Origin: Myrmaecium sp. VS I D KN 1
Lineage: Eukaryota; Ascomycota; Dothideomycetes; Valsariales; Valsariaceae
Direction: 5' to 3'
Length of the DNA: 64,000 nt
Assembly: GCA_019775845.1 (NCBI GenBank)
Contig: JADQAV010000051.1
Coordinates: forward strand, 1 to 64,000
Shown here: piece after piece, positions 15,420 to 64,000 of the stretch
How positions within the stretch are numbered: the stretch's first letter is position 1
Layout of the letters: the number at the start of each line of letters is the position of its first letter
The notes under the pieces: generated by a model
What the model was told of the DNA's origin: nothing
The model's database searches: none
The model's input: only the letters and a program-made list of their open reading frames with translations
Position numbers and translations under genes: made by a program

Positions 15420-15566
15420 CATTTAGGCATGCACGCAGGCAGGCTCTCACGCCGCAGGCTCTCACGCAGCAAGGGGCCCTCGCTGGCGCTCGCAGCGTCC
15501 CCTGATATATTTACTCGCAGGCCCTCGCGAGTATACAGCGTGGACGTTGTATGCCTAGCAAATTCC
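15420..15566. repeat. GC-rich minisatellite island, related to 50225-50530
   Basis: Contains GCACGCAGGCAGGCTCTCAC and CCCTCGCTGGCGCTCGCAGC, then TATATTTACTCGCAGGCCCT. The same order of phrases is found inside the foldback element at 50.2-50.5 kb. ATTTAGGCATGCA at the left and the inverse of ATTTGCTAGGCATACAA at the right form a rough inverted repeat, so this may be a small mobile unit. Confidence 0.6.
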
Positions 15567-21606: not shown

Positions 21607-21639
<33 letters not shown>

Positions 21640-31772: not shown

Positions 31773-32136
31773 ATGGGTTGGAAAGAGGAAAGGGATATGT
31801 GGATGAATGGAATAAATACATGATATATCCGGAACAGTGTTGTTGTGCGTGAAGGAACCTGTCGCATGCACTCAGTTGTCCTCGAACAAAGAGGATCCTC
31901 GATCTTTCTTTACCGCCAATATGTTGAAGGACGGTGCTGTGGATACGATCAGCAGCAACTACTCCTACACCAGGACGAAGATCGAGTGAGGTGGATCAAA
32001 GCCGGACCTTACGTAAGTCAACGTGTCAGCTTCACCCGGACCACACCGTAGTATACCTTCCTCCGCCCCCCCGCAATCTGACCTCACCTCTCTCCATCTT
32101 CAACACTTCGACAGTTGTGCCCTCTCTTGCAGGAAA
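31773..32136. other. Intergenic, possible 5' leader of the GH76-like gene
   Basis: 364 bp. A GTAAGT at about 32013 and a TTGCAG at about 32127-32132, just before the chosen ATG, could bound a 5' UTR intron. In-frame ATGs from 32023 would add 38 residues without recognisable content. Confidence 0.45.
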
Positions 32137-33426: not shown

Positions 33427-33625
33427 GATGCCATGAGAGCAAACAACGCATTGAAAGGCCAAGAACATAAGTGTGAACATCACTAGGAGTAAAGTGACAG
33501 AGAACAAAAGGCAAAACAGGCGATGGTTTCTTCAACAAATTCAAAACTGGCCTCAGGCAACACGAGAGTTCATAATTCAAGAGTGCTCCATCTTCAACAA
33601 ACAACAACCCAGTACACAGATGTCA
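33427..33625. other. Convergent intergenic
   Basis: 199 bp between the 3' ends of the GH76-like and P450 genes. Nothing else seen. Confidence 0.5.
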
Positions 33626-39822: not shown

Positions 39823-40707
39823 ATGGGCTCCGCCGCCGTCGATGCCGTTAAGCTCATCGAGCTGTCTCCGGAAGAGCTCGCCAGCAAGACGGTTGAATCT
39901 CACAACCTTCAGGCCGCCCTGGAAGCGCTGCACGAGGATGGGATGGTGGTGATCACGAACGGGGTGGACCCGGCCCACCTGGACAAGCTGAATGGCCGGA
40001 TGGTGCCCGAGGCGGAGTACCTCTACCGCCGGGCGGAGACGCATCACAACTTCGGGACGGGGACGGGCAACATCCAGCAGGAGCCGGTGCCGGAGCCGGA
40101 GTTCGTGTTCGACGACGTCGTGGCGAACCCGTGGGCGACGCAGATCATCGCGCACATGCTCGGCCCGCGCCCGCACCTCCGCTTCCTCAGCGCCAACACC
40201 GCCTTCCGGGCCGAGAAGCGGCAGCCGCCGCACATCGACGTCCACTTCGACTTCCCCCGCATCCCCTTCGGCTTCGCCGTCAATGTCAACCTCGTCGCCA
40301 CCTCGCCCGCCAACGGCGCCACCGAGGTCTGGCTCGGCACCCACACCGACCCGCTCACTCACATCCGCAACGTCGACCCCGTCACCGGCGGCCTCCAGCC
40401 AGACGTCGTCGAGGCCCGCCGCGCCGTCCGCCCGCCCCTGCAGCCCTCCCTCCCCAAGGGCGCCGTCATCATCCGTGACTTCCGCCTCTGGCACGCCGGC
40501 ATGCCCAACCGCACCGACGACCCCCGCGTCATGCTCGTCACCATCCAGTTCCCCCAGTGGTACCGCAGCGACCTGAAGATCACCTTGCCCAAAGCCCTGC
40601 AGAACACCGTCAACTGGGGTGACCTGGTTCCATGTGTGAACTGGGTCGATGACGTCTCGGATTACTTACAGGGACGACATGACCATGATTTCTCGCTGTT
40701 GCCGTAA
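39823..40707 (+). CDS. Phytanoyl-CoA dioxygenase-family Fe(II)/2-oxoglutarate oxygenase
   Basis: Intronless, 294 aa. The double-stranded beta-helix iron site is His137 and Asp139 (PHIDVHFD) with distal His224 (LWHAGMPN). The 2-oxoglutarate-binding Arg235 (DDPRVM) follows eleven residues after. The N-terminal DGMVVITNGVD is the family start. Length is typical of fungal PhyH-like enzymes, some of which perform hydroxylation, desaturation or endoperoxide formation in secondary metabolism. No targeting signal is seen, so cytosolic. Strong C-rich third-position bias (40200-40560). Divergent from the sugar porter. It is the last oxidative gene of the 23-41 kb group. Confidence 0.92.
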   Translation: MGSAAVDAVKLIELSPEELASKTVESHNLQAALEALHEDGMVVITNGVDPAHLDKLNGRMVPEAEYLYRRAETHHNFGTGTGNIQQEPVPEPEFVFDDVVANPWATQIIAHMLGPRPHLRFLSANTAFRAEKRQPPHIDVHFDFPRIPFGFAVNVNLVATSPANGATEVWLGTHTDPLTHIRNVDPVTGGLQPDVVEARRAVRPPLQPSLPKGAVIIRDFRLWHAGMPNRTDDPRVMLVTIQFPQWYRSDLKITLPKALQNTVNWGDLVPCVNWVDDVSDYLQGRHDHDFSLLP

Positions 40708-41803: not shown

Positions 41804-42127
41804 TTACTTGCCCCACACCCCGTCTTCCGCGCATTGGCCGCACTGCTGCTGAGCCTGCGTGAGGCAGTTATTCGTGCAGATGAGGCCGGCCGGGCCCGGC
41901 TCATCCAGGCAGCTGATCGGGCACAGGCTGTCGAAGAAGCTCTGGCACTCGTGGTAGTTGTGGCCCGGGCAGCCCGTCGCCCCTTCCTGACGTTTTTCGA
42001 TCTGCGCTGGGGACGCGAGGGCCAGGGGAAGGATCGTAACGAGGAGGAGCTAGTCGGACGTTCCGGTTAGGAGACTGGCTTTTAGTGGATGTATGGAGGG
42101 AGGCGTAGGTACAATGGATGGGTACAT
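41804..42127 (-). CDS. Small secreted cysteine-rich protein (effector-like)
   Basis: Two exons: 42127-42113 (five codons) and 42049-41804, joined over a 63 nt intron (GTACCT to TAG) with a CTAAC branch motif about 20 nt before the acceptor, phase 0. The start has a perfect GCCACC leader. The product is 86 aa. Residues 1-19 (MYPSILLLVTILPLALASP) form a signal peptide. A short propeptide ends in EKR, a Kex2-type dibasic site at residues 24-25. The mature part of about 61 aa has eight Cys (32, 40, 48, 52, 63, 67, 75, 78), enough for four disulfides, in a CPGHNYHEC...CPISC...C...C...CGQC pattern. No homologue is recalled. The size, signal and Cys content are those of fungal effector or antimicrobial-type secreted proteins. 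It is the last gene before the RIP block, about 700 bp away. Confidence 0.8.
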
Positions 42128-42830
42128 GGTGGCAATTTCAGGACAAGGGGTTTGACTGCGGGTGTTGGAGGTAAACTTTAATATAGCTATGCTGGCAGTG
42201 TAGAGACTCGAGATGATGTGCTGGAGAGAGAGCGAGAGATGGAGAGTGATGCTGAAAAGATCTGACTTTGGCAGTCTTCTTATCCTCTTCCTCCTTCCTT
42301 CAGTACGTCGTCGTATCCCGCCTCAACCTTGTTTGAATGCTGGCTATACTGCGTATAAACATCACATCTCCGTTTGTACGATCCGAGCGGCCAGCCATCG
42401 CTGACCGCAGATCATCTCCTGTACCCCGAGGCCGATCGATAAAGTGGAAGTCAAGCTCATCGAGGACCAGAGGCTACGTGGTACATAATGTTGCAGCTAT
42501 AATTAGCAATCAGTGGCGTACCTACCTTGCTCTTAAACTCAGATGACAAATGAGATGCATCGAGGGGCATACCGGTAGAGGAGAGAGTAGTAGTAATAGT
42601 GACTGAGACATGCGTTCTTTCGGCCCGACGAAGGCGTCTCATGAACAAACCTAACTCACCAAGCAAGTATGCTGTCTTGTGTTATGGGAACAGCCCGGAG
42701 TATTATAGGTACGAGGAGCGATGTTAGCAAGGTGCGCTAAGGTTCGTATGGATCTATCCCGTCTTGCTAAAGTCGGGTGCAGCCTGTAACTTAGCATCAC
42801 GGACGTAGTGATGAAAATAGCCTAGAAATG
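42128..42830. other. Promoter of the secreted protein and transition to AT-rich DNA
   Basis: Normal composition up to about 42800, then an abrupt fall in GC, CpA and TpG. A GAGAGAGAGCGAGAGA tract lies near 42222. No gene was recognised. Confidence 0.5.
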
Positions 42831-43387
42831 CCTATAAACCGGCTCCTGTATTTCAACCTTATAGATAACGCCGTTAAGTGGAGATCTTACTGTAATAGTA
42901 TATAGGCTTCTAATACTTACTAATTAATCTAGCCATACTAATAATCTAGCCCCTTGCTTTAATCTAGGTAATATCGAGCGATAGAGTTAGAGACTTACAT
43001 CTATAGCTTAGTAAAATAGCCTTAATATATAAAGACTAGTATTCTAGGCCTCGGCTATATAGATTATTCTATTATAAAGATATAATGTAAAGGGTATACC
43101 GATACTATTATATAAGCTGATCTTCTCCTTATGAATTAATAATAAATTACTTTTAATAAGTAGAGGAAACTAGGATATCTCTAGGCCTTAAGCCTTAAGT
43201 ATATACCTTCTTAAGGAGGCCCTAGAATAAGAATAATAGCTATATAAATAGAAATATCTATAAGAGCTATAGTACAGTAGCCAGACTATAAAATAGTAAG
43301 GTATTAATATATAGGTCCTTATAATAATTCCAGAATAGCTACTAGATTATACCCCTCTTTTAAGCTTAGGGATTATTAGTATATATT

Positions 43388-43875
43388 AAGTAGAATAGAG
43401 CTAACTAAGTATATAAGGAGTTATAAAAGGTTAGAGGAGTATTTTAAAGGTAATAAATCAGCCCTAGTCTACTTTATTATCTAAGTAGTTATCTAGATTA
43501 CTTAGATAGATTATCTAAATATAGATAGATGTATCTTTATTTATAGGCTTTATTATAGTAAAGCTAAGCTCCTAATATAAGGGGCTAGACTTCTAGTTTT
43601 TTATAATATTTTCTATTAATTTAAAATCAACTAGGCAGAGCTACTTAGCTGATTCTAGGCCTAATTCTAAGCCTAAATCTAGGCCTAAGTTACCTCTAAA
43701 TAATCTAATTCTAGGCCTTATTTAATTTTCAAATTATCCTTTTCTAGGCCCCGCTTAATTCCAGATTAGCTGGTTCCTTACCTCAGGTTCTGGCATATTA
43801 TAACCATGTTATAATGCCTTTATTTAGTCATCTTGATATATTATAACTATACTATAATACCTTAGCTTTAACACG
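43388..43875 (+). repeat. LTR-like repeat, copy 1
   Basis: About 490 bp, beginning near AGAATAGAGCTAACTAAGTA, with a TATAAGGAGTTATAAAA promoter-like stretch and ending after a GGCATATTATAACC palindrome-like region. Same family as the copies at 48567, 50905 (reverse), 53267, 56914 and 61568. It looks like a solo LTR of an old retroelement, RIP-degraded. Confidence 0.65.
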
Positions 43876-43904
43876 CCCCTTAAGGTTTATAATATTAGTT
43901 ATCC

Positions 43905-44050
43905 TAATTATAATAGTAATTATTTATCTATTATAATATTATAACAGTAATTATTTAATTATTATAGTCTTACAATAGTGATTATTTATCTCTTTATCTT
44001 ATAATAGCGATTATCTATCTATTCTAATCTTACAACAGTGATTATTTACG
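43905..44050. repeat. Tandem repeat, about 40-45 bp units
   Basis: Four imperfect units of the type TTATAATAGTAATTATTTAT. Least mutated units keep ACAGTGATTATTTA. Confidence 0.65.
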
Positions 44051-45769
44051 ATTATATTTATTCCCAGATAGTTTTTAAATCGTCTAATTCTTAATTTATG
44101 TAGCCCTTTTATCTAAAGAGAGACCTAGTTATCTAGTATTACCTTATTCCTTATACTTAATATATTATACGAGCGAGGCAGCTTAGATGTGAATAACTAG
44201 CAGCGGTCTTAAGGCCTACTCTTAAGATTATAATAGTAGGGTTCTAGATAGCTAGTAGTACTACTATACTATCCGACCTAAGTTAATTAATACTAGTAGG
44301 GCGTCTCTCTATTAAGAGAGGTATTATATAATAAATTAAGTATATCTAAGTTATTAGTTTAGTATATAATCTAATCTAGTTTAAATCCTTTAAGATTATA
44401 ATAGGTCTATATTAGGTATTACTTATTAGGAAGAGTAGAGAGGATAAGCTATTAATAAGGCTATTAATAATAATAACTTAATATTAGTAGCTTTATCCCC
44501 GTTAATAAGTATACTCTCTTCCTTAGCTTTATTTAGTACTAATTAGCTCTTAGAAACGCCGTATATATTAATTATAGGGGGTAGATAACCAGTGCAGGAT
44601 AATAGCTCTGGATTAGAAGTAAGACTAAAGCTACCGTTCCCTATTCCTCGCAGTCCTCCTTAAATACTATTATAGGTAGTGCTAAGGTTCTCGCTTAGGT
44701 AGCGTATGTAGTGCCTAAGGTATCCGCAGGTACGGCGCAAGTGTCTTACATTTACTTAGCTATATTAATCCTATTTATTACTTAAAGGTACGTCCTTACT
44801 GTAATACTAATAGAAATCAGGCTATTAAAGGAATAATAAATATAGTACTATTAATATATCCCTTTATTCCTAAGTTAGTAGTTCCTAGCTCTTTTTAGAA
44901 GTCTATCTTTATAGCTATCGTTAATATTTACCTATAGTAAACTAATTAGTTAGGAGCTTACCCCCTTCTTAATATTATATAGTAGTTAGTTACTAGGTCT
45001 ACTATTAATTATATAGCTTATTATTACTCTAATTAAATAAATACTAAGAAAAATTTTCTCTTTATAATTACTAGTATATTAGTCCCCTATAACCTTAAAT
45101 AGCTTTTAATAAGTTTAATAGAAGTTATTTAGTAGGGCTATCCTCTAACTTCTCTACCCTTTATTCTCTATGTTATTAAATTTCTATAATTATCCTAGGC
45201 TAGTAAGTCTACTATTAGTATAAGCTAGAAAGTACTATTAAAACTAAAAAAAAAAACCCTTTTAGAGAATATAAGGAAAAGATAGCTCTTATCTATCTCT
45301 TTTAATCCTATTCTATTTTTATTCCTATTTATTTATTCTTTTTAACTCCTCTTTAGAATTATTTAAGTATTAAAGAGTTTAAATTTAAACTTTTCTCCTA
45401 GATATTCTTTATCTAGAAATAATTCTCCTATTTAAGAAGGTATTCCTATTATCTATTAGTATTCTTCCTTATATCTTTAACTCTCTCTATTCTATAAATA
45501 TCCTTTCTATATCCTAATAGTCCTATTACTATATATTAGTCCGGGTATCTTAGTAACCTCTTTTAGGCCTATAATTCTAATAGTAATATATAGAAAACCA
45601 GATAGATATTCTTATAGCCTGATATAGATATTTTATAGGCTTATTTATATAGAGTTTTACTATTTACAGGCAGCGGAATTACTATTCGCAGGCTATCTTA
45701 TCTAATTAATCTTATTAATAAGAAGTTCAGGGTCTTACCCTACTAAAACCGTAATAATTTAAGTATAAA

Positions 45770-45958
45770 GGCACGTAGGCAGGCTCTTAAGGCACGTAGG
45801 TAGACTCTTAAGGTACGTAAGTAGGCTTTTAAGGTATATTAATATAGGCAGGCTCTTAAGGTTCGCAGGTAGTCTCTTAAGGTATATAGGTAGGCTCTTA
45901 TACGTAGGTAGGCCCTTATACGTAGGTATACTAGCCCTTATATATAGGTACGTCCTTA
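45770..45958. repeat. Minisatellite, about 20-22 bp units
   Basis: About nine units such as GCACGTAGGCAGGCTCTTAA, interrupted at its right end by the Tc1/mariner-type element. The array phrase resumes beyond the element near 48370 (TAGGTAGCTCCTTTCGCAGG). Confidence 0.7.
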
Positions 45959-48367
45959 TATACCCCCTTAGTATAGCTAGTAGTTAGCGCTCCTTTTATA
46001 AGCTACTATAAGTATTAGCTATTATTAAGCTCCTATTAAATCGTAGCTAGTTAGGCGCTTTAAAATATAACGGTATATATTAGAATGTATAGATATAGTA
46101 TTAAGGCCTATACAGGCTATTTTTTAGGTTTTTAATTATTTTTAGTATTATAGGCTATATATAACGAATTCGATAAACTAAAATAGTAATACTACTACTC
46201 TATAGATTTACTCCCCTAGTATTAACTAATTACTATCTAGTATTAATTAATTATTATCTAGTATTAATAAATTATTATCTAGTATTAATTAGTTACTATT
46301 ATATATAGCCGTTACTAGCTGTAATTACAGCTCTAAGGCGTTAAGAACTTAAGGTATACTTATTACTACCTCTACTAGAAGCGCTATATCTATATTATCC
46401 TATTCCTCCTAGATAGCCTATCTTATCTACTCTCTAGTAAATAGCTATAGTACTTACCTTAATAGCTATCGCTTAATATAGCTCTAGATAGTCTTAACTA
46501 AATTTAAGTTAAGTAAGTTAAGTAGCTATCTAAGTAGAGGAAGCTAGTAGCAGCTAAATTTAGTAATAAATACCTTTACTATATAATAGGGGGTATTATG
46601 TTATATAATAAAGCAGGCCCTATTAGACGGTAATATAGTATTAAGAAAGAACTAGTTAATTAGGGTAATAATATACTCCTAGTAAGACGCTAAATTAATA
46701 GTCCCCTACCCTAAATCCTAGAAGAGTAATAGCCCCTTTTTATAGCTACTAATAGCGCCTTATATTATAGTTAATAGCTATCTAGTAAAACGTAGATATT
46801 AGTAGTTATTAATTAAGTATTTATCGTTATAACGCTAAGGCCCTACTACTTAGGTAATAACCCCTCTAAAAAAGAGTAATATAATTTAGTAACTATGCTA
46901 GTATCACCCTAGGGACCCGTATATTAATACTTCGCTACCTTACTACCTCGCTGCCTACTATACTACCTTATAGCTATATATAGCCTAATAATTATATCTA
47001 CGCGTTATAAATAGATATATAAAGCCTCTATTATATATCGTACTTTTATCCGTCTAGATAATCTAGTATTAAGGTAGTAAGAGATACTAAGATAGGAAAA
47101 CTCCGGTACGGGCTCTAATTAACTAACTTTAGGCGGTTTAGTTTAGTAGTATCGCTAGGGTCTATTAATACTATAACTAAATAAAAATTACTTACTTAAT
47201 ACTAATTATTACCTATCTAACTATTAAAATATTAGGCGAACTACAGCCTATATTACTTATTAATAAGTATAAGATATAGCTTTATAACTACTATATATTA
47301 TTAATAGCCCTTAGTAGCTAGTATTTAGTATATTATTATTATACTATACTCTAGCTCTAATACGCTTCTTACTTCTATATAAGTTAACCGCCTATACTCG
47401 GCGCTCTAGGTAATTATTAGGCTGTATAAGCAGCGAGGTATTAATATACGGGTCCCTGCGGTGATTTATTATAGTTACTAAATTATATTACCCTTTTTAG
47501 AGGGGTTATTACCTAAGTAACAGGGCCTAAGCGCATTATAGTAATAAATTTAATAACGCCGCGTTTAATAGGTATATTATATTACCTTACTACTAAGGTA
47601 CGCCGCCTGTATATATCTTAATAGCTTAGTTAGTAGTATCCTCCGCGAATCGGCGTTATAAGCTTAGTAGCTACTTACTATACTATTATATATAGCTAGT
47701 TAAGTATTATAATAATCTAGTTAATAGGCTAGTAAGCGACTCTAAATAACGCTTTAATAAATAAGTATATACCGTACGGAAGAGCCTAACGGCGGCTCTA
47801 GTTAAAAGGACTAATAATAATACTACGCTATTTAATTAAACGAGGTATTACTAGCGGCGGTAGAAGCTAATATAGTTATCTATCTAATAGCGGAGATTAA
47901 CTAAGTTATTTAGGTTAACCTCGGTCGGAGAAATGATTTTAAATCTATTAAGGGTTATTATTTATATAGGAAATTAGGTAAAAGCTATAAAAATAACAGA
48001 TATTAAAGCTTCTAATTAGCCTTATATATTTTAATACTTATATACTTATTCGTCGGGCTCTAGAAGTATATAATAAAGGGTACTTTCAGAGCCTGTTAAT
48101 AGAGGAAATCGGAAGGATTTAATCCTTTAATTTATTAATTAATTAATACTATTATTAATATTCCTTCTTTATAATATCGACAGCTTTAAGATACTTTAAA
48201 GAAGTAAATATATAGCTAAATAGCCTTATTTTTAGGTACTTTTAAGTAGCTGAGGTATTCCTAAGCTAATAGTAATATTAAGTAGCGTTACAAGCTAATA
48301 TTAAGAGGCCCCGGCTACCCGCCTGTTAAAACGTAACGCTAAATACCGGCTGCGCTAAGGGGGTATA
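45959..48367 (-). mobile_element. Tc1/mariner-type DNA transposon, RIP-degraded, with a nested element
   Basis: About 2.4 kb bounded by inverted repeats whose least mutated form is TACACCCCCTTAGCGCAGCC (left end at 45959, right end at 48367), flanked by TA-rich target DNA consistent with a TA duplication. On the minus strand, roughly 46800-46330 retains a decayed transposase C-terminus: the phrase NLNLVKTI-stop-SYIKR, where the stop is TAG for TGG, and LLVEVVISIPQVLNA match the end of fungal Tc1/mariner transposases around the last catalytic acid. Many stops are present and none of the frame is open. A 731 bp inverted-repeat element is inserted in it (46819-47549). Confidence 0.7.
46819..47549. 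mobile_element. Inverted-repeat element nested in the Tc1/mariner-type element
   Basis: Arms of about 150 bp or more. GGCCCTGTTACTTAGGTAAT, then AACCCCTCTAAAAA, ACCCGTATATTAATAC and CTCGCTGC on the left arm (46838-46960) recur as the reverse complement on the right arm (47430-47535). The middle of about 430 bp has no coding trace. Non-autonomous; superfamily unknown. Confidence 0.75.
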
Positions 48368-48566
48368 TATAGGTAGCTCCTTTCGCAGGCGCTCTAGGCC
48401 CTCTCGCAGGCCCTTTAAGAATTTAGTAGGGTCTAAAGTAGAGTCTTAGCAGATTAATTAGATAAGATAGCCTGCGGATAGTAATTCCGCTGCCTGTAAG
48501 GCTGTAAATAGTAAAACTCTTTATCTATCCTCTCTTAGATTATTCCTAGGCAATAGTATTTATATT

Positions 48567-49052
48567 ATTATACAGGATAGAGCTAACTAAGTATATAAGG
48601 AGTTATAGAAGATTTTAGAGGAGTATTTTATAGGTAATAAATCAGCCCTAGTCTATTTTATTATCCTGGTAGTTATCTAGATTAATTAGATAGTCTATCT
48701 AGATATAGATAGGTAGGCCTTATTTATAGACTTTTTTAGGGTAACGCTAAGCTCCTAATATAAGGGCTAGGCTTCTAGTTTTTTATAGAGGTTTCTATTA
48801 GTTTGAAATTAACTTAGCAGAACTAGTTAGCTAGTTCTAGGCCTAAGTTTAGGCCTTAGTTAATTCTAAATCATCTAAGTTTAGGCCTTAGTTAATTCTA
48901 AATTATCTGAGTCTAGCCCTTAGTTAATTTTAAATCATCTAATTCTGGACCCCGCTTAATTCCAGATCAGCTGGTTCTTTACCTTAGTTTCTGGCACTAT
49001 AAGAATCTTATAATACCTTTATTTAGTGGTTCTGATATATTATAACTATATT
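48567..49052 (+). repeat. LTR-like repeat, copy 2
   Basis: Starts near ACAGGATAGAGCTAACTAAG and runs through the same TATAAGG motif, ATCAGCCCTAGTCTA, CTAGGCTTCTAG, the triplicated TCTAGGCCTTAGTTAATTC-like stretch, and the terminal TTATAATGCC region. Solo and degraded. Confidence 0.65.
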
Positions 49053-49149
49053 ATAATGCCTTTATTATATATATATATTATTAGTAGTAACTATAGTACT
49101 AATTATTATATTCTAGTCTATAATAGCTTCTTAGGTATTACTTAAGGGT

Positions 49150-49990
49150 CGAACTCTACGTATTTATTTATCTATCTATAAGTAGTAAGCTAATAAGAGT
49201 ATCTTCTTTAATTATAGGCCCTTATTAAAGTCTTCTAGTAAGCTACTTCTATAATAGGGCCTCTATCTAAAAGAATTACCTCTATAATCTTATATAGCCT
49301 AATTACTTCTCTTATATAGGCTTCTATTAGTTCTATTATATTTAGCTTCTTCTAGATTATAATATAGTAAGTTATCTTAGTAAATCTATTTATTAAACTA
49401 AGTAATATATTATATACTATTACTAATATCTTTAAAGGTAGTGGGTCTATAATAAAGTCTATTATAATATACTATTATACCCTTTCTAGTCTTTTTTTGT
49501 AGTTATAATAAGCTATATAGTTTATACCTGCGGGCCTTTAATATAGTATATATTTAGTAGTTCTAGATACACTCTTTTACTTCTTTATTTATTTCTTTCT
49601 AGATTATAATCCATTCAGCTTTTCTAAGTATCTTTATATAATAAAGGTATCCTCCTATTGGATTATTATAAGCTTCTTTAAGAGTTTTTCCTTTTATTTT
49701 AAATAGATAGGGTCTCCTAGCCTTATTTAGCTCTTTTTAGCTTCTTCTACCCCTCCTGAGGGCTCTAAGGCTATTTCCTAGTACTTAGTAATATAGATCT
49801 TAATATTTAATACTCTTTAGTACTATCCTACTATATTATTTAGTATTCTATCCTAATTTATCTTTATTATACTTCGCTATTCTTATAAGCCTTATAATAC
49901 TACCTTCTTATATTCTTCTAAGTCTATTATAATATCTACTATATAATCTAGTCTACTAGATAGAGTACTAGCCGGGTTTAACTTTCCTAA
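49150..49990 (-). mobile_element. Ty3/gypsy pol fossil (integrase region)
   Basis: On the minus strand the order of conserved blocks matches the end of RNase H followed by the N-terminal and core part of a Ty3/gypsy integrase. The element is partial and heavily broken by RIP, with dozens of disabling changes; it is clearly old. The foldback element at about 50.1-50.65 kb and a reverse LTR-like copy at 50.9 kb lie on its upstream side. Confidence 0.6.
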
Positions 49991-50103
49991 CTAGGATATA
50001 ATTTTAAAAAATAATTATATAGGCTTTCTGCCTATCCTACCTGCCTTCTATCTAAGGTCTTTATTTTTCTAAACTCTTATAAGTTATTATAATCTATAAT
50101 AAA

Positions 50104-50651
50104 CTTAGGGAATTACTAAGTGTATAACCTATAATTAGTCGGCATACAGCCCCTAATTACTCGGTTTATAACCCCTAATTACTCGGTGCACAACCCCCCC
50201 TTAGCGCCCCTTTTAATTAGTTAGAAGCCCTTGCGCAGGCCCTCGCGTAGGCCCTCAGGCAGCCTCTTAGGCAGGCACGCAGGTACGCAGGTACGCAGGT
50301 ATATAGGTAGGCCCTCGCAGCCTCTCTTACAGCCTTCCTCGCAAGCCCCCTTGCAGCCCCCTCGTAGGTCCCCTTACAGGCCCCCTCGCAGGTACCTCGC
50401 ACGCTCTAGTAGGCGGAAGCCTCGCTGGCGCTCGCAGCGCCCCCTAATATACTTCCTTATAGGCCCTCGCAGGCCCTCGCAGGCCCTTATAGACCCTCGC
50501 AGGTATTCAGCGTGGGCGTAATACGGGGTGAAAATTATATATTACTAGGCTATACCGCCTACTTCTGACTAATCGGAAGGGGGGTTATATATTAAGTAAT
50601 TAGGAGTTATATGCCGAGTAATCGGGGGTTATACACCTAGTAATTTCCTAA
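50104..50651. mobile_element. Inverted-repeat element carrying a GC-rich minisatellite
   Basis: Arms of about 100 bp: AATTACTAAGTGTATAAC, then TTAGTCGGCATA and TAATTACTCGG on the left (50104-50225), and the reverse complement on the right (50535-50651). Between them, 50225-50530 is a GC-rich array of GCAGGCCCTCGCAGGCCCT-like and ACGCAGGTACGCAGG units that kept many CpA/TpG sites. The array shares CCTCGCTGGCGCTCGCAGCG with 15470-15500. Confidence 0.75.
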
Positions 50652-50904
50652 ACTTAAAGGAATCTTTTAGCTCTTTTAGGTAGTATCTCTATTATCTATA
50701 ACTACTATTAATTATAGGTAACTCTTTATTATAGATATTATAGTTATACTTTATATTAATTATCTTCTATAAGTAGAATACTATTAGTCTCTATATCTTA
50801 CTTATATTTAGTTATTTAACTAATTAATAGTATATTCTAGCTACTACTCCTCTAAGGCGTTAACTTCTACTCTTACGGGCCTATTTAGGTTAAAGTATAC
50901 TAGG

Positions 50905-51308
50905 ATTAGTATTAAAACTAAGGTATTATAATATAGTTATAATATATTAGAAATCGAGGTAAAGAACCAGCTGATCTAGAATCGGGCTGGGCCCGGAGGT
51001 AGATAATTTAGAATTAACTAAACCCTAGACCTAGGCCTAGAACTAGTTAACTAGTTCTAATAAGTTAATTTTAAGTTAATAAAAAACTATATAGAAAACT
51101 AGAAGCCTAGCCCTTATACTAGGAGCTTAGTATTACCCTAGGAAAGTCTATAAATAAGGCCTACTAATCTATATCTATATAGACTATCTAATTAATCTAG
51201 ATAACTACTAGGATAATAAAGTAGACTAGGGCTAATTTATTACCTATAGAAATACGCCTCTAAAAACTTTTATAACCCCTTATATACTTAGTTAGCTCTA
51301 TTCTGTTT
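50905..51308 (-). repeat. LTR-like repeat, copy 3 (reverse orientation)
   Basis: Reverse complement of the family, from AAACTAAGGTATTATAATAT to TTAGCTCTATTCTGTTTAA. The only inverted member of the six. It could belong to the minus-strand gypsy fossil to its left, but no matching partner LTR is seen. Confidence 0.65.
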
Positions 51309-51629
51309 AATATTATCGCTACTATAACTATCCTAATACTTACCCTAATCCTTATAGACGCTTACTTACTAATAAATAGGCTAGATAGAAAAGTATCTAG
51401 AGAGATAATATACTAGGGGCTGATTAATTATATAGTAGTAGCTCACTATCGCGGCTAGTATTAATATTTATATAGTATTAGAATTAACAGTCTACTAATA
51501 AATAGAGGAGTTAAACTAATATAAATATACTACCTCCACATAATGTATTTACTGTTCGATCTTATTAATAAGATAATTAGATAAGATAGCCTCTGCCGCT
51601 AGTAGAACCCGCCTCTATAGATAGTAATT

Positions 51630-52170
51630 CTCTATAATAAAAGACGGAAGCTAAAATAAATAGCTAAAAGAGCTTATTTATAAGCTATATAGAGTATTAT
51701 ATAGCCTTAAACAATCAGCTAGATAGTAAGTAGTATAAGCACCTAGAAAAATTATTTAATAAACCAGCCTTTATAGGCTATACTATATAATCTAGTAATA
51801 TCTAGAGATCCTAAAACAAAAATGGTTATTACTTATTATATAGATAATTTATTAATATTCGGTCCCAATAAGGAAAAGATTACTAATTAAAAAAGTAGAA
51901 GTAAATAAATATTTATAGTAACTAAGCTAGGATCAGTTAAACGCTATCTAGGTATTAGAATATCTAGTATTAGAGATATAAAATATATAATAGAAATAAT
52001 TAATAGGTTTAAAGAAAAATACTAAATCTAGTTTCTATAGAAGTAAAGCTAGGAATCCAACTAGGAAAGTTAAATGTAAATATAATTACTAGGAATTATT
52101 ATATATACACTGCTATTATACTATTAGTATATAATCTAATCTTATTAATCTTATCGATAAGGGCTCCCGA
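51630..52170 (+). mobile_element. Ty1/copia pol fossil (reverse transcriptase region)
   Basis: Plus-strand traces of the copia-type reverse transcriptase C-terminal half in the usual block order. Partial, RIP-degraded and old, with many disabling changes. No LTRs could be assigned to it. Confidence 0.6.
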
Positions 52171-52344
52171 CTAAATACTAAATATCCGTCCAGGCCTATT
52201 AATAGTTGATTTAGTAACGTATATCAGCTTATAACTATTATCTAGAGGTATAAAAGAGCGCGTAAAATTCACTTCTATACCCTTAATACTATTATAATAG
52301 ACATACTACTTCTAGGAAGCTATCTAGGGTACTAGGAAGTAGTA

Positions 52345-52499
52345 TACATCCCCTTAGCATAGCCGGTAGTTAGCTTATACCATATATATAGCTTAAGATC
52401 CTGGTTTATACGAATTAAAAGCTGTCCCGAGGTCTTTTATTCCTTATAAGAAGACGTATATAAAGGAGCGCTAACTACCGGCTGCGTAAAGGGGGTGTA
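52345..52499. mobile_element. MITE related to the Tc1/mariner-type element
   Basis: 155 bp with ends TACAYCCCCTT and inverted repeats sharing GCCGGTAGTTAGCG with the 45959-48367 element. No coding capacity. A short internal deletion derivative is the simplest explanation. Confidence 0.75.
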
Positions 52500-53266
52500 A
52501 GTAGCTAAAGATTAAGCTAAGGTATATAGATATAGTATTATTATTAGAAGCTCTTAGAGAATACTATATCTAGACGGCAGTAAGGGGATAATAAATAAGA
52601 TATACCTCCTTGTCTGTAGTAAAGGTAAGATATATAAATTTAAAGGCGCTGAATAACAGTAGAGTAGTACTTATATTAATACTTAAGGTAATATTAAAAG
52701 TATTAATAGTCGCCCGGAGTATCTCTAGCTACCTAGAGCTGTAAAAGAGTTTTTTACTATTTTCGGAAGAGCTCTTATTTAATATTAGGTACTCTTTCCT
52801 TATATCTTTAAAACCGTATATAAATTATAATATTCGAATCGCTCTTTATGTCTAGACCTAATAGAGGGGAATAAGTATAAATAATATAAGATTACTACTA
52901 TTTACTTATCTAGAAATATTAATACTAGATAAAATAGAAGCCGGGATAGTAGAACTACCTTAACTATCTAATAATAAGATAGAAGGGATTTAACTATAGC
53001 CTAATAATAAGTTAGAGGATATCTTATAAGATTATAGTTAGATACCTAAATTATAAGGTTAAGAGCTTAGAAGTAGGTAGAAGATATACTAAGAAGGAGC
53101 TAGTAAACTTTACCCTCCTCTACTAGTAAGTAGAGGTAGGAGAGGAGATAATAATAGAAGAATTAATATAATAAATCTGAATCGGCTTAAAGAGATCGGA
53201 AAGATATTATAATAATTATATTTACCTAAACCTAAACCTCTACATATACTTACAGGTGTTAAATAG

Positions 53267-53706
53267 GATAGAGCTAACTAAGTATATAAGGAGTTATAAA
53301 AAAAATTAGAGGAGTATTTTACAGGTAATAAATCAGCCCTAGTTTATCCTAGTAATTATCTAGATTACTTAGATAGTTTTTCTAGATATAGATTTATAGA
53401 CCTTCCCTATAGTAATACCGAGCCCCTAGTATAGGTGCTAGGCCTCTAGATTTTTATAGAGTTTTCTATTAACTTAAGATTAACTTGGTGGAACTAGTTA
53501 GCCAGTTCTAGGCCTGAGTCTGGGCCTTAGCTGATTTCAAATCATCTGAGTCTAGGCTTTAGTTAATTCTAAATCATCTAATTCTGGGCCCCGCTTACCT
53601 CCTAATCAGCTGGTTCTTTGCCTCAGTTCCTGGCATTATAGGCATCTTATAATGCCTTTATTTAGTGGTTTTAATATATTATAACCATGTTATAATGTCT
53701 TAGTTT
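53267..53706 (+). repeat. LTR-like repeat, copy 4
   Basis: Starts at TGTTAAATAGGATAGAGCTA and ends near ACCATGTTATAATGTCTTAG. One of the least degraded copies. It lies directly before the plus-strand Ty3/gypsy internal region and could be its 5' LTR. Confidence 0.7.
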
Positions 53707-53712
53707 TAATAA

Positions 53713-56700
53713 AAGGAAAGAAGTAAGCTAGTTATAATTATTAGGTCTATAATTATAAAGAATATTATATATACTCTCTAGCCGACTTCTAAACAGAATA
53801 ATATAAGATAGATTCTAGAGTATACTACTTAGCTAGAGTATAAGGAATATAGTAAAATATATAAGTAGATCTAAAGAAAAAGCGAAATCTTACCTAGGAA
53901 CCTATATAAGAAGACATAGAAGTCTAAATACTAGTAGATATAGATTTAGTAGTAGAAAGAAAGTAAAAAGTAATAGATTAGCTTAAAAGAGTTATCTAAA
54001 GGGTTATATAAATAATATCTAATCTCTTAAGATATATATGGCTATTATAGGATAAGATTAAGTAAAGATTAAAACAATAGATAATCTTTAAGTTTATAAA
54101 TACCTTAAATCTAGTTATTAAGGAAAAGATATAAATAATCTACTATAATTTCTTTCGAATACTTCTAATAATAGAAAAGAAGGCTAATTAACTATTAAGA
54201 ACTATAAAACTAACTAGACTATCTAAATTTAATAAGTTTCAAAGGAAAAGGAAAGACTAACTATGTAAGGAAGAGAGAATAAGTAAAAAAGAGCTAGAAA
54301 AAGACTTTAATAAGACTAAAAGAAGGAATAGTGACTATTATAAGACTTTATTAAAGTTAAACACTATATATATAGTTATATTTATAGTAAGATAATTTAT
54401 CTTTTAAGGACCTATCTTAAAAAAAAGGACTATTAGAAATTAAAAATAGATAAGAGATATAAGGAACTAATTTATTCCTTATAATCTATATTAATCTCTA
54501 AGAAATATTGAGGAGGACTAAGAAAATAGGATATCCTATTAAAGGAGTAGTAACTAGACTACTTACTTTAATAGCTTAAGTTAGTCTAGTTGAAAAAGAA
54601 GTAGTAGTTAATAATAGGTCCTTCCTTAGTATTATTATAGTAATAGTTATCGAGTAATTAGATCTAAAGGATAAGCTAGTAATAGGCTTAGAAATAAAGT
54701 AAATAACTAGTATACTACTATCTATCTATAGCTGAATATACCTTAAAGAACCATAAGGGCCGTAAACTTAGATGGAAATTCTATCTTTTATTATTAAGAG
54801 TTAGGTGTATAATATAATCCTAAAGATACCCTAGATTGGAAGAATTAACCTAAGGATTAATTATAAAAGGAGAACTATCCCATTCTCTTTAAGATAGGTT
54901 AATAAAAGCCTATATAAGAAAGTATTAATAGTTAGTAGGGAAAAGCTTACTAAAATATTAAAGAATAGTAGTATAGATATAATTCTAGAAGAAGAAAGTA
55001 AGGAGTTACTAGCTAATATATAGTATAATCTAATATTTAAATTAATAGAAGAGAAGATACTACTATATAGTCCCTTATATAACTTATTAGCGGTAGAACT
55101 CACCGTATTAAGCTAATATTAAGAAGAATAGAACCTTAGTGGGTATACTAATCCTGTTTTATAAAAGATAAAAGTTTATAATTTTTTTCTAACTATAGGG
55201 GACTAAACGCGATTATAATTAAAAATCATTATTCTCTATCCCTGATTTAAAAATTATTAGATAGATAATAGGGGCTAAGATCTATACCCCCCTAGATTAT
55301 AAGGTTACCTACTATAGGATATAGATTAAGGAAGGAGATAAGTAGAGAACCACCTTTTATATTTAATATAGTTATTTTAAGTATAAAGTAGTTCCTTTAG
55401 CTTAGCTAATACCCTTATACCTATTCAGGCCCTAATTAATATGGCCCTAGTAGGATTAGTTAATATAATCTATATAGTATTTCTGGATAATATATTAATC
55501 TTCCTATAAGACTAAGAAGAGTATATAAAGTATATCTAATAGGTAATAGAGAAGCTAAAGGAATATAAGCTAATTATAAAGCTCCTAAAAAGCCGATTTA
55601 ATACTACTAAAATAGAGTTCCTAGGATATCATATTCCTAGAAGAGGTAGGGTAGCCTATTAGGTTCCGAAAGCTAACTAAACAGGGGTCTAGCTAACTAA
55701 AAAAAAGAAAAAAAACCCGAGCCGTAAATCTAGAGGCTCTACTAACCCGAAACTAAATAAAGTCGAACCTCGGAACGTATAAAAAACCCGAAAATTCCGA
55801 AAAATTCTATTTATAGAAGCTGGCTTTCTGGCCTTAAAAATCCTAAATATTCTAATTAATTATAACTTAGAAAAGCTAAATTAGTATAGCCTAGCCTTCT
55901 AGGTATTTATTTAGATTTATCTAGATTTTTCTGGATTATTTTAGATCCTTTTAGATTTTCTTTTTTAGGAAAAAAGTCTTTTTTATTTTTTTTATATTTA
56001 ATACTAATAGATACTAAGCTTTTTAACTTTTATAGACTATATAAGTACTAATAAGTATAATACTATTTTTTTAATTTTAACTACTTTATTTAAAAAGTTA
56101 GTTAAATTTTTTATATTTTTTAGAAAGTGACTAGTCTTACCTAAAGAAATTTTATAAAAGATAAGGTTATTAATTAAAAGTCTTCTAACTTCTTATTCCT
56201 CTAATAGAAAAAATTAAGAGGAATACTATAGATACCTCTAAGTATCCAGATTTAGCTTCTAAAATATAAAGTCTATATAATAGGTATAGATTCTTTTAAT
56301 TAATTTATTTAGTTTAAGAATCTGGGGTTTTCCCCTCCCTCGCTTAAAATCTAGGGGTAAAAATTTTAATAGTCTAATAACTTTAAAGCGCCGCGCTTAA
56401 ATTCTTTAAGAATTAAAATATAGATACTAGATTTTATTAATTATAATATATTAGATTTATATAACTGCCCCTTAAGTAGATTATTTATTATTAATTTTTT
56501 AGAATTAAAATTCGGGGTTTTCCCCACCTCTCGTTTAGGATTTAAGGGTCTAAGGGAACTGCTATTCCTATATATAGATTTTACTAAAAAATATAATCTT
56601 ATCAGATTGATCCTTCTTAGGTAAGACCCTAGATTTCTTATCGATAAGATTAATCTAATAAGATTAAATTTTTTTAATAAAACCTATATATATATATATA

Positions 56701-56913
56701 TTATAATTCCCTTTGTAAACTACTATAAATAATTTATAAAAGATTCTTAAAGATTTCCATACTACTACTAATTAAACTAACCTAAAAAGGGCTAAGGAGC
56801 GCTAAAGAAGGCTATAAGTAAAGAAAAAAAGAGTTAATACTATTAGATTATAAACTATCTAGGAGGAAAGCCTTTAAAGAGATAAAAGATACTTTAATAA
56901 AAGTACTAATTAT
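53713..56913 (+). mobile_element. Ty3/gypsy internal-region fossil with an insertion
   Basis: Plus-strand degraded internal region. A Ty3/gypsy reverse transcriptase region is recognisable at about 55120-55650 and an RNase H start at about 56840-56910. About 1.1 kb of unrelated DNA (about 55660-56760, containing the dispersed repeat at 55940-56330) is inserted between them. Integrase is not seen before the next LTR-like copy. Very many disabling changes; old. Confidence 0.6.
55940..56330. repeat. Dispersed repeat, copy 2 (first copy at 7830-8200)
   Basis: Same orientation and order of motifs as 7830-8200. Lies within the DNA inserted into the gypsy fossil. Confidence 0.6.
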
Positions 56914-57218
56914 TAAACAGGACAGAGCTAACTGAGTATATAAGGGGTTATAAAAGATTAAGAGGAGTATTCTATAGGTAATAAACTAGCCCTAGCTTAA
57001 ACTAGCCCTAGTTTATTTTATTATCCTAGTAGTTATCTGGATTATTTAGATAGTCTATCGCGATATAAATAGGTAATCCTTATTTATAGACTTTCCTATA
57101 GTAATACTAAGCTCTAAGTGTAGGGCCTAGGCTCCTAGCTTTTTATAGAGTTTTCTATTAATCTAAAGTTAACTAGGCAGAGCTAGTTAGCTAGTTCCAG
57201 GTCTAAGTCTAGGCCCCG
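56914..57218 (+). repeat. LTR-like repeat, copy 5 (3' truncated)
   Basis: Starts at AACAGGACAGAGCTAACTGA and is cut off after CTAAGTCTAGGCCC, where the minus-strand gypsy fossil begins. Confidence 0.65.
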
Positions 57219-59430
57219 GGAGCTTATTAGCTTCTCTTTTAGTAAAAAGAAGTAAAAGGTTATAGAATTACGGCGGAATAATTTCTTTAAGGCGTTACTA
57301 TTCCTCCTTAAGAGTTATAGAGGCGGCCTTTTTTCAGACTTTAATATATATCCTTATATTAGAGAGTAAAACTAAGTATATTTAAGCGCTATATTTCTTC
57401 GAGAGCTTATTTAAAGCTATAGCGGAAACGTAAGTAATAGATATATAAGTAGGGATAAAAGGTTTAAGAGTAATTTCTTCCCTTATAGGAAGATAATTAG
57501 CCTAATAAAATAGATAAGTAAAGGTAATCTTATTTTTTAACTAGTTTATAACCGGATTATGCTACTTTAGCTAGGAAGTTCCTAAGATAATAAGATATTC
57601 CGCTAAATAAGTAATATAGAGGGTTATAGTTTCTAAATACTAGTTAATACGAATTTCTAGGTCTATTTTATATATAATCCTCCCTATAGCAGATTTACGT
57701 CTATTTATAACTATAAGGGTTTCCGGATATTTTTTTAAATATAGTTAGAGGTTATTTATAGTAAGAAATTTAGAATTAACGAAGAGTAAGATAGCGCTAG
57801 AATTAATTATAATAAAGGTATTAATTAACCTATTAGTTTAATAGTTTAGAATTAAAGGGGGTTATTTCCTAAGTTTAAAGCGCGTTTTTTTAAAGGCTGC
57901 GAAGTAACTTAGGAAATTAAAAGTAAACTAAGTAAACTTAGGAGAGTTTCTAAGAGAGAGAACTAATTAGATAAAAATATTAAAAGTAAAGTAGCTTATA
58001 ATAGGCTAGCTAGAGGCTATAGATTAATTAGCCCGAGGCGTTATTTTTAAAATTAAGTAGAGAACCTAAGCGAGAGGCTTCTCTAAGGCTATAGAAGTAG
58101 ATACGGTAGGAACTACGGAAGTTATAAGACTAGAGGTAGAAATTATATTAATCTTTTTCTTCTTTATTTTTAACTTTAGATAGTTCTTAACCTAATATCT
58201 AGGGGCGCTATAATAAGTATAAAGGTTATTAACGTAGTAGTATTATTTCTAAGTAGTAGAATTAAGTACTATAAGTTCTCTAGGAGATAGTATAAGTATA
58301 GTAATAAGCTATAGTATAAGAAGCCTAGGAGTAGAGGATTAAGGGTATAAAACGGGCGAGGTTAAGTAAATAAGAATAAAAACTAGAAGTAGTAGATAGA
58401 GTAGGAACTATCCTACTTAAGCGCTTAAATTACTCTTTTAATAGTAGTATAAGTATTAAGGTCGGTAAAGGCAGCTTAAAAGGTAGAATAAAAATTAATC
58501 TAGGTTTTAAAATTAATAGAACTATTTTTCGTAGAAATATAAGGTTAGAACTAAGTATAAGCGGAATTTTAGAAGTATAAGCTAGCGTAATAAATTTTAG
58601 CCTAATTAGAGGAGAAAGTAAGGTTAGAGGTAAACTTTAACTAAAGCTATATAATAAAGTTCCGAAATTAAGATCTATCGCCTTTAAAAGGTTTAGGGTC
58701 GGCGATTTTTAGAATATAGAAGCGAGAAGCGGATTTAGATAAAAATAAAATAGAAATAGAAGTTAGAATAACTTAATAAGAGAGAGCTAAGAACTAGGAA
58801 TTATAAACGAGAGTTTTAATTACGTTATAAGTACCTAGATTAAAGTAAGATTAGATAATATCGAATTAGTTAGTAGTATAAATAGGCGGGAAATTCAGTG
58901 AAAAAATATTACTAATAATAATAAAAGAACGTTCTTAAGTATAAGCGGCGGCTAGAGTAGAGCGGATATTAAACGGGAGGTTAGGGACGAGAAACGGGGT
59001 TTAATAAGAGTTATTAAATACTTTAAAATTATCTAAAGTATAATAAACTTAAGCCTAATAATTAGGATAATCTATATTTATACTAGAAGATATAGTAGGT
59101 AAGACCGGAGGCGAAGATAGAAGTAGAAATAAATAAAAACTAGAAGAAGGAGGCTACTTAATAAAGTTTAAATAATACTATTACGGCTAATAGTACTATT
59201 CTCTTAAACTAAGATAGAAATAAAGGGAGATAATTCTAAATAAGGTCTAATCTTCTAATTTTATAAATTAAAGATAAGGGGGAAGAAAATAAGTAATAAA
59301 GAGTTAACCTAAGGAAGGTCTAAGGATTTAAAGATAAGAATAAAGCTAAGCGAATCCTTAAGAAGAACTTAAGAGGGAAAAACTAGAATTATTTAAACTA
59401 AGGATCTAAAACTATAAGAATAAAAGAGTT
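57219..59430 (-). mobile_element. Ty3/gypsy fossil (gag-protease to start of reverse transcriptase)
   Basis: On the minus strand the region around 57560-57800 matches a retropepsin-like protease leading into the start of a reverse transcriptase (57230-57450). The gag-like charged region lies at higher coordinates (about 58000-59400). Truncated at 57218 by, or against, LTR-like copy 5. Heavily broken and old. Confidence 0.5.
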
Positions 59431-59714
59431 TATATATACTTAAGGAGGGAGCGGTATAAAGTAAAGCTTTATTAAAATACTACCTAATTCTACGGGTCTT
59501 AAAGTAGGGTTTCTAATAAAGTATTAAACGAGTATAGGTTTAGAGTAACGTAGTAGTAATATATCCTAATAAGGGTAGGTTTATTAAGTAAAATATTAAG
59601 CGATAATAAAGTAGTAGTAATATAGTAAGAAGCGAGATTATAAGTATACTATATAGTAGCGATATCGCTAAATAGCGGCGATATTACTAAGTAGTAGTAA
59701 GGGTTAGATAGTAG

Positions 59715-59830
59715 GCTTATATACTAAGTAAGAGCTAAGATATATACTAAGTAGGAGCCCGTATACCGGGTAAGCGCGAGGAACGTATACTAAGTAAGTA
59801 TAAGAGATATATACTAGGTAATACCTATAG
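59715..59830. repeat. Short tandem array, about 25-28 bp units
   Basis: Four to five units of TATATACTAAGTAAGAGCTA type, one retaining CCCGTATACCGGGTAAGCGC. Confidence 0.65.
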
Positions 59831-61567
59831 GACTTAGGCGATCTTCGGATTTTAGGAGGTTCTTAGAAGTTTTATAATAAGGATACTTAGGAAAAGTACT
59901 ACTAATATTAAACTAGATTAATTATAAATAAAAAAGGAATATACTCCTAAATTATACTAATAATCTTCCTAGCTTTAGAGCGGATATTAAGCTCCTTTTT
60001 ATAAGGCCCGGAGGCCCTCTTAGTAGTAATTCTAGTAGGTTTAGAGTTAATTAACTATCTAAGCTCTAATATCTAAGTCTTAATAAGTTTAAGTACCTAT
60101 AAAAAAGCTAAGTTAGTAGTTTATAGATTAAATAGAGCTAAAGAGATATACTACGAGATAATCCTACCCTTATTTAATATAATATATATATTTTATACTT
60201 ATAGTTTTACCTAAGGATAAGATAAGGCGCTAAAAGTCCTTATTAGTACTAAACTTATAGATTTCGGTTTTTCTATCTCTATATCTATAGTAATTTTAAT
60301 CTATATATCTTATGTATAAATTCTTAGACTTTATTCTAGCTTTAGTATCTTATAGAGGTTATTTTACTAAGGATAGTATAGATTTAATAAATAAAGGCTA
60401 AATAGAGTTAGCTAGTATAACTATAGCCTAAAATAAGCCTAATAGGATTTAAAATTCGTAGGCTAGCTTATTAAATAGGAGATAGCGGTAGTAGTAGTAT
60501 AAAGATATAAGAAATAAAAAGTAAGCGACTTAAAATTTAGTATTATAGGTATAGTATATACTAACTCTAAAGCGGACGCCGAGCGAGCCGAGAACGGCTT
60601 AAGTCTTAGAGAGGGGATAGTATTAGAAACTAATATAACTAGCAGCTTTAGGTAGTACTAGGTAGCCTTAAATAGTACTAAATAGCGCTAAGCGGCGGCC
60701 CTTTAGGCCGATATAAGCTAGATAGTACTAAAGAATAGTAGAGTAGATAAGAACTTATACTAATAATAAGAGTAATAATAATATTATTAATAACTAATCC
60801 GAGGAGTTCTAGCTACTAAGAGATATAAGGGAGTTTTCTACTATTTAAGGAAGAGCTGAAGTTATTAGTAGGACTTTAGCGATTTATTTTATTTAATATT
60901 AGATACTCTCTACTTATATCCTAAAGACCCTGTATAACTCTTAACAGTTATCTAATAATATACTATTATTTACTTTTTATTAGGAAAATGTTATTTTGCG
61001 GGGCTAGGACTTTTCTAGTATAGGGTTAGTCTTAGCAGACCCTAAAAAAGATAGATCTAATAAGGTTATATTTCTTAGTAAAACCTATATATATAAATAG
61101 TAATTCTCTTATTTTTATAACCTTTATAGGTCTTATTCTTATAATTAATCCGCCTATAGTAAGGCTTTACCTAACCTTTTATAAATAATACTATTATAAG
61201 TATTATATATTCCTGATTCTTCTTAGGCTTGTAATAAGCAGGTACCTTTTTAGGATTCTTATTTTATACAGGTTGAATCTGTATACCTATTTTTTTATTA
61301 TAAAATAAGCAGATCTTTACCTTACTTTTATCTTCTTTAGATATTCTTCTATTCTTAACCTTAGATATAAAGACTATTAGTTTTTCTAGATTATTATAGA
61401 ATATCTCTAAAAGTTTGATTTTTTTACAGATTCCCCTTTTTTTAAATTTCTAAAGTCGATTTTATTCCGGCTATTTTTAGAGATTCCTCACTTGATTTTT
61501 CAGATCTCGGACTTTTTTAGGGTAAAGAATATACTTTTTCTGGCAGGCAGGGCTGGCGCATAATCTC

Positions 61568-61980
61568 TTAAGTAGGATAAAGCTGACTAAAAAGGATTTT
61601 AGAGGAGTATTTTATAAGTAATAAATTAGTACTAGTCTGTTTTAGTATCTAGTACTTATCTAAATTACTTAAATAGTCTATCTAGATCTAGATAGGCAGG
61701 CCTTATTTATAGACTTTACTATAGTAATACCGAGCTCCTAGTATAGGCCTATAGGCTTCTAGTTTTTATAGAGTTTTCTATTAATTTAAAGTTAACTAGG
61801 CAGAGCTAGTTAGCTAGTTCTAGGTCTAAGTCTAGGCCCTTCTAGGCCCCGCTTTAATTCCAGATCAGCTGGTTCCTTGCCTTAGTTTCTAGTATATTAT
61901 TATTATAACTATCTTATAATGCCTTTACTTAGTGGTTTTAATATATTATTACTATATTATAAATCTAATATCTTAGTTTA
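61568..61980 (+). repeat. LTR-like repeat, copy 6
   Basis: Starts near TAGGATAAAGCTGACTAAAA with a small internal deletion relative to copy 4, then follows the family through CCAGATCAGCTGGTTCCTTG to its end. Solo and degraded. Confidence 0.6.
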
Positions 61981-64000
61981 GACAAGGGCGCATATACCTT
62001 TCAGAAGAAGAAGTTCTATTACTAGTATTCTTCTAGTCTAGCTTCTTATAAGACTATATTATATAAATATTCCTTAAGAATAACTAGGATTTATCTCTAA
62101 CTTAGTATTCTAACCTAATAAAATAAAATGATATAGTTTAGGACTAAAGAAGTAATATAAGAGAAACTATAATTAAAAAAGGCCTATAGGCCTACTAATC
62201 AACACTAAGAAAGGACTATTAAATAATAATAAAGAAATTAATATAAATATTATAAAGAGCTAAAGGGAATAAAGAGATAGTATATAAGAAGATATAAGAG
62301 TAATATATACCTTATATGTATTTTAATCAAGCTAAAACTTAATAAGTATATTTTAGGAAAAGAGAAGAGAAGAAGGAATAAAAACTAGATAGATATACCC
62401 TCTTATAAGTAGCCTCTACTAAAGCGCGGATAGTAAGTATAATACTTAAGATATTAATACCTAATAATGTTATTTTAGTATATAGAGTGCGAGCCTTTAA
62501 TAATAGTAATATAATAACCTTATTAGTATTATAATAAATATATGTTAAATATATAACTTCTTCCTTCCTATAAGTACTTATACTATATATTATAGCTCCA
62601 AATATTTTATAGCCCTTTCCTAAAAAGCTTAAAGACCTTTAGTAAGAATATAGGCTATAATAAGACTTTTAGTAATAGATATAAACAACTAATATAACCT
62701 ATAGAAAATTAGTAGGAGCGATTAATATATAATATTTATATAAATATATTAAACTTCATAAAATATATAGATACTAATATCTACTATAATACCTACTAGT
62801 TACTTCTAGTATTTAAAATTAGAGAAGAGTAAGGCCTAGTTATCCCCTATATCACTTCTAAAGAGGCCTAGCAGGCTAGGTATCCCCTTATTAAATATAG
62901 TGATATAAGATCTAAATTCATAGTCTAGTATATAGGTAATTTATTTAATAAGAGTATTAATATAATATGCTAGGCTTTGTATAAAACTTAAGTTATATAT
63001 AAGTAGCTAATTTATTATAATTATTTAAGCTTTATAATTAAGGCAGTATTATACCAGCTTATATAGGATTATAAATTATATTACTATATTAAATAGTAAG
63101 TTCCCTTAATAGGGTACTAATAATACCTACTATATATATGCTCTACCTTTATAGTTACTAGATAAAAGTCTGAATAGGATCCTACTTCTCTACCTAAGTC
63201 TACTATTTTAACCAGTAATTTAACCGTACTAAAGATATTTTTATTAAATAGAGTTTAAAATATATAATCTAGATATCTAAAACTATTATATAAATAAGAG
63301 ATATAATGATAAATTTTAGTATTTATTTATTAGATTATCCTAACCTCCTAAGGATAAAAGTTACTATCTTAATAGCTAGTTTCTAATTTAGTAATTAAAT
63401 TACTTATATAAGTATTAAAAAGAATCCAGAAAAAAATATATTATAAAGGATATATTAAGGAAAATATATCTTTAGATACCAAGTCTATATCTACTTTATT
63501 TTTTTATTTTTTTATTATAGTTTAAACTTTAGCCTGACTATTCAGACTTTTAGCCTAGTACTATAAGTATAACTTATATAACCTTTACTATTACAGACTA
63601 GTTATATATAAATATAGAAGTAATTATTATAAATATTATACTTAATATTTCTTAGAAGACTAATTATTTAATCAAGGCCTATAACTATAAAGTAATATTA
63701 AGGTTACACAGAGTCTTAAGTAGAGAAATAGTATCTGATATTTAATAAGATAAATTACTGAAGTCTAGATACTAACTTTAGCTCTTTACCTTCCCTAGGA
63801 AGTAGAAAAACCCCTTATAGCTCCGGGTAGCTATAGCTAGTTTATTTAATACGTATAATTCTTATAAGGCCTTAATTATTAATATAAGTATATATTACTA
63901 CTAGTCCGCCGTTTTTAGTACTTAATAACTTATATTAGCGTATATAAATAACTGTATAGCGGGGCAGCTCATAATAAGAAATTCAGATATATACTATTTA

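Follow-up and report, generated by a model that had tools for sequence, protein, structure and literature searches.

Does a short reading frame with a five-codon first exon, located close to an AT-rich block of a fungal contig, encode a secreted protein, and what might such a protein be used for? The locus in question lies on the minus strand at positions 42127-41804 of a 64-kb window—that is, the whole stretch of DNA that was analyzed, bases 1-64000 of contig C42 in an unannotated assembly of 25.66 Mb and 66 contigs. A first exon of five codons and a second one, separated by an intron of 63 nt, join to 86 codons plus stop, and the product of 86 residues reads MYPSI + LLLVTILPLALASPAQIEKR + QEGATGCPGHNYHECQSFFDSLCPISCLDEPGPAGLICTNNCLTQAQQQCGQCAEDGVWGK. 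On sequence grounds, this gene model and the signal peptide it encodes are well supported because a sister gene elsewhere in the genome agrees with it in start, in exon length, and in the position of the intron. For the product, we favor—with a probability of roughly 0.6—a helical hairpin that is secreted, laddered by disulphides, and active outside the cell in an effector-like or interaction role, directed toward a host or a competitor.

Exon 1 (42113..42127, minus strand like all gene features described here) carries the five codons ATGTACCCATCCATT for MYPSI; the sister begins with a five-codon exon as well. The ATG is preceded by the leader GCCACCATGT, whose bases −6 to −1 are the ideal Kozak bases, while base +4 is T; the "perfect Kozak" leader of a first-pass annotation of this DNA is hence worded slightly too strongly. 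A TATA-like TATATT (42180..42185) is found 58 nt upstream of the ATG, and the sister has TATAAA at −140. The phase-0 intron (42050..42112) reads GTACCT...CTAAC...GACTAG and bears the branch-site-like CTAAC (42066..42070) 16 nt before its end. Exon 2 (41804..42049) contributes 81 codons and the stop. Since the unspliced frame runs into the in-frame TAG that closes the intron, and since exon 2 is devoid of any Met, splicing is required. The proposed two-exon structure with its CTAAC intron is confirmed by the sequence, and the sister has a matching architecture.

This sister came to light when all six frames of the genome were searched with the exon-2 protein, which has one other place, C5:1437693-1437875 (E 5.9e-16, 50% identity). 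Here, exon 1 reads ATG CAG TTC ACC TGG and is followed by a 61-nt phase-0 intron at the same position, GTACTT...GCTGAC...CAG, and exon 2 again starts inside the signal peptide. Common to both copies are the five-codon exon 1, the intron position, a hydrophobic start, ALA before the likely cleavage, and all eight cysteines with gaps of 7, 7, 3, 10, 3, 7, and 2 residues (11 instead of 10 in the sister). The first-pass annotation had named homologues with a different start and no signal peptide as the outcome that would speak against it; the sister has the same start and a signal peptide. A reciprocal genome search with the sister as query returns the same two places only, and with either copy as query no third paralogue appears among the best candidates, which are the ones this search scores. 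The introns, leaders, and trailers of the copies share matches of only 9 and 11 nt, and none of the 132 window frames of at least 100 aa has a counterpart at E 1e-4 in the 40 kb that surround the sister, as a segmental duplication would have it. Therefore, the copies split long ago, and the protein was retained. Over 54 codons from the first Cys, NG86 gives dN 0.41 and dS 1.43, the latter near saturation, which makes the dN/dS of about 0.29 a rough value; at fourfold sites, the copies agree in 10 of 20 across all 78 aligned codons. Judged from these figures, selection between the two copies looks purifying.

The exon-2 part of the putative signal peptide (residues 6-17; 42014..42049) would be cleaved between ALA and SP or, alternatively, between SPA and QI according to a simple −3,−1 rule. 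The signal peptide predicted at first pass is thus borne out by simple rules. It is followed by a short propeptide, SPAQIEKR (41990..42013), ending in a Kex2-type KR. This EKR site, likewise part of the annotation, is present in the 42127-41804 copy and absent from the sister, where most of the stretch containing the KR is missing. The remaining 61 residues (26-86; 41807..41989) form the mature peptide, in which counting recovers the eight cysteines that had been noted. No two of them are adjacent, and their spacing is palindromic about CX3C-X10-CX3C.

Two single-sequence AlphaFold runs yield a helical hairpin with helices at mature residues 12-26 and 33-56. The peptide probably folds as a hairpin of two helices that a stack of disulphides holds together, and the symmetry of the cysteine spacing suggests the pairs C27-C38, C23-C42, C15-C50, and C7-C53 (mature numbering). 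The plant α-hairpinins with four or six cysteines (e.g., nigellin-1.1, PDB 2nb2) are alike in core spacing, in the antiparallel helix-loop-helix that is predicted here, and in a signal-peptide precursor. Their core motif, C-X3-C-X4-20-C-X3-C (PMC11591084), is present with gaps of 3, 10, and 3 in the 42127-41804 copy and 3, 11, and 3 in the sister. Their core disulphides connect C1-C4 and C2-C3, the arrangement that symmetry alone would suggest for the fungal product. However, the curation of these peptides excludes sequences in which the core is accompanied by at least three additional cysteines (PMC11591084), and the fungal product has four, arranged as CX7C arms plus one further Cys at each end. 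In addition, α-hairpinins comprise less than 50 residues and arise from a precursor of multi-module or vicilin type (PMC10136942), whereas the fungal peptide has 61 residues, one module per precursor, and a strongly acidic character. As a single sequence it also matches no PDB chain at E 10. Despite the core motif, we therefore do not class it as an α-hairpinin, membership being rejected on extra cysteines, length, and precursor type.

One review calls this peptide family restricted to plants (PMC10136942). No fungal α-hairpinin is named in the titles and abstract openings listed—which does not prove absence from print—and a literature search joining hairpinins with fungal effectors found no paper; in a paper that mentions hairpinins beside ascomycetes, those of plants are meant. 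It is a tentative idea, possible rather than probable, that a fungal family independently reached the cysteine-stabilised helical hairpin, a fold that certain animal toxins also have, and lengthened it by one heptad to a four-rung ladder as an acidic secreted interaction scaffold. If true, the locus suggests that fungi, too, use a disulphide-laddered helical hairpin, the theme of a family described as exclusive to plants (PMC10136942).

Relatives beyond the sister were sought in several collections. Among 5.8 billion proteins, a set in which many fungi are represented, no homologue was found at E 10 (one word-sharing candidate for the single sequence, 11 for the two-row alignment) by a search that depends on shared five-residue words and may let remote relatives escape. 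As a control, the mitochondrial DNA polymerase of the window has 2007 matches in the same database, and the named organisms among the 120 listed are largely Dothideomycetes, so that fungi are present in it. In IMG/VR and GTDB, neither of which is a fungal collection, 0 of 98 and 0 of 76 pattern matches were confirmed. A PDB match of the two-row profile at E 1.7 was taken as chance, and a viral structure library gave nothing below E 0.74. NCBIfam gave no match, and Pfam none besides a weak HJURP_C (E 0.023), which stays below the cut-off (14.9 vs 22.7 bits), vanished with the exon-2 part alone, and was rejected. The homologue search that had been proposed as a check thus provides no relative outside the sister in any of these sequence collections. 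Hydrophobins have eight Cys with two CC doublets and are ruled out, as the product is without adjacent cysteines. CFEM proteins resemble it as secreted fungal proteins with eight cysteines in about 60 residues; however, it has no Pfam match to PF05730 at E 10, and the 11 CFEM places elsewhere in the genome exclude this gene. Its gaps also misfit the printed consensus, PxC[A/G]x2Cx8-12C...CxC..., of which the required CxC is missing (PMC8707630). What the sequence and the predicted structure point to is a fungal protein that is small, secreted, and rich in cysteine, with a predicted hairpin ladder, one sister in its genome, and no relative found elsewhere.

How might such a protein work? The signal peptide would take the product into the endoplasmic reticulum, and the 42127-41804 copy would then be trimmed after KR. 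Folding into a helix-loop-helix hairpin would follow, with the nested disulphides C27-C38, C23-C42, and C15-C50 as a clamp and C7-C53 pinning the N-terminus. The outcome would be a protease-resistant extracellular protein whose likely contact surface is the conserved loop plus the second helix (GPxGLICxNNCLT), and its most likely use would be an effector-like contact with another organism—host or competitor—outside the hypha. A lineage-specific interaction protein fits, as far as a search by shared words can tell, as no relatives were detected in a database with many Dothideomycetes. Fungal small secreted cysteine-rich effector candidates are similar in being small and cysteine-rich, in bearing a signal peptide (by simple rules), and in having no detected relatives.

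A further likeness to these candidates is that the 42127-41804 copy lies 0.6-0.8 kb from a block affected by repeat-induced point mutation (RIP). This AT-rich block (42800..64000, no strand) is defined by GC content and RIP indices and extends to roughly 71 kb on the contig. The GC content drops below 40% from about 42.75-42.9 kb, i.e., 0.6-0.8 kb upstream of the ATG; the first-pass annotation gave 0.7 kb. The RIP composite index reaches +1.85 in 500-base windows of the block and is −0.30 over the gene; over longer stretches, it amounts to +1.42 for 43001-64000 and +1.67 for the AT-rich 6001-11000. Within the block, 50000-50499 forms an island of 50% GC with a still high RIP composite (+1.25).

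Several observations weigh against the effector-like interaction role. The niche near a RIP block, from which this role had been derived, is a weak argument: unlike effector candidates, the sister (C5:1437.7-1437.9 kb) is not near such a block, with 0 of 19 one-kb windows within 10 kb being AT-rich (all at least 47% GC) and the nearest AT-rich window about 15 kb off. A location beside a RIP block does not characterize the family. One-kb windows below 40% GC account for 25 of 64 in the analyzed stretch and for 7 of 40 in four other parts of C42; near the sister there is 1 such window in 39, and contigs C1, C2, and C4 have 0 in 40. These samples are too small to give a rate for the whole genome. 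Nor does processing by Kex2 characterize the family, as the sister has neither KR nor RR. Selection between the copies appears purifying, not diversifying, as a 54-codon average. Finally, the genome search found at least one cutinase gene and at least two pectate-lyase places, and these counts, set against no fungal yardstick, do not speak for a life as a plant pathogen. The distance of the sister from AT-rich DNA, the mode of selection, and the cutinase and pectate-lyase counts would suit a cysteine-rich protein secreted for the fungus's own biology—in the cell wall, on the spore surface, or as a self-signal—with no role toward other organisms. However, no relatives appear in other fungi at this search sensitivity, though many fungi are in the database, and core wall proteins would usually be kept more widely. 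We regard such a purely internal function as unlikely, albeit to be taken seriously.

An α-hairpinin-type antimicrobial peptide against competing microbes is improbable. The CX3C-Xn-CX3C core is held in common (PMC11591084) and a hairpin is predicted, but antimicrobial peptides share a positive surface charge (PMC11591084), whereas the mature peptide has a net charge of −6.1 at pH 7 and a pI of 4.2 (sister −1.1, pI 6.0). This acidity speaks against a membrane-active antimicrobial, and the antimicrobial role suggested at first pass is disfavored. Very improbable, too, is a protease inhibitor with an inhibitory loop between the helices. Some plant α-hairpinins do inhibit trypsin, with residue and loop mapped in VhTI and an Arg being critical (PMC10136942), and the loop GPxGLI is conserved between the copies; yet the loops LDEPGPAGLI and MTAAQGPGGLI bear neither Lys nor Arg, which speaks against a trypsin inhibitor and leaves other specificities open.

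A mechanical scan for the architecture (ATG, short exon, GT..CTRAY..AG, hydrophobic start, and at least 8 Cys, chosen with the 42127-41804 gene in view) returns this gene as its one match on both strands of the window, and the sister as its one match in 123,182 bases of other stretches of the same genome, in a stretch fetched for its homology. That there is no gene, just a chance open frame with a signal-like start, is hinted at by the very short first exon but hardly credible in view of the identical architecture of the sister and the lack of any such model in 30 first-order resamples of window 11001-42999. If the interpretation holds, the locus is a genuine gene for a secreted protein; its first exon of five codons could easily be overlooked by gene callers, and the sister is the comparative proof of the gene.

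Of the neighbors, the mitochondrial DNA polymerase gamma gene (MIP1; 18241-22065, plus strand) has a long Q/S/T-rich low-complexity C-terminus and identities up to 76% among 120 of its 2007 matches listed. In a tree of the window sequence and 56 of these 120 rows (28 named plus further rows from the first 40), the top identity is 78% over 703 columns. The window sits on a long branch of 0.67 beside the Botryosphaeriales and a group of Pleosporales with Glonium, where the fork has weak support (87, drawn open). Judged from this tree, the fungus belongs to the Dothideomycetes, and none of the tree rows is closely related to it. In 23162-40707, metabolic and transport genes follow, with Pfam matches for 8 of 8 open reading frames tested: FAD-binding, MFS transporter, RING finger, short-chain dehydrogenase, GH76, P450, sugar transporter, and PhyH dioxygenase families. 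This stretch is possibly a secondary-metabolite cluster. The region 11001-16000 has a GC content of about 49%, compared with 60% in the adjoining gene-rich DNA, and is without a RIP signature; within it, the open reading frames 12379-13320 and 13466-14368, both on the minus strand, may form one gene.
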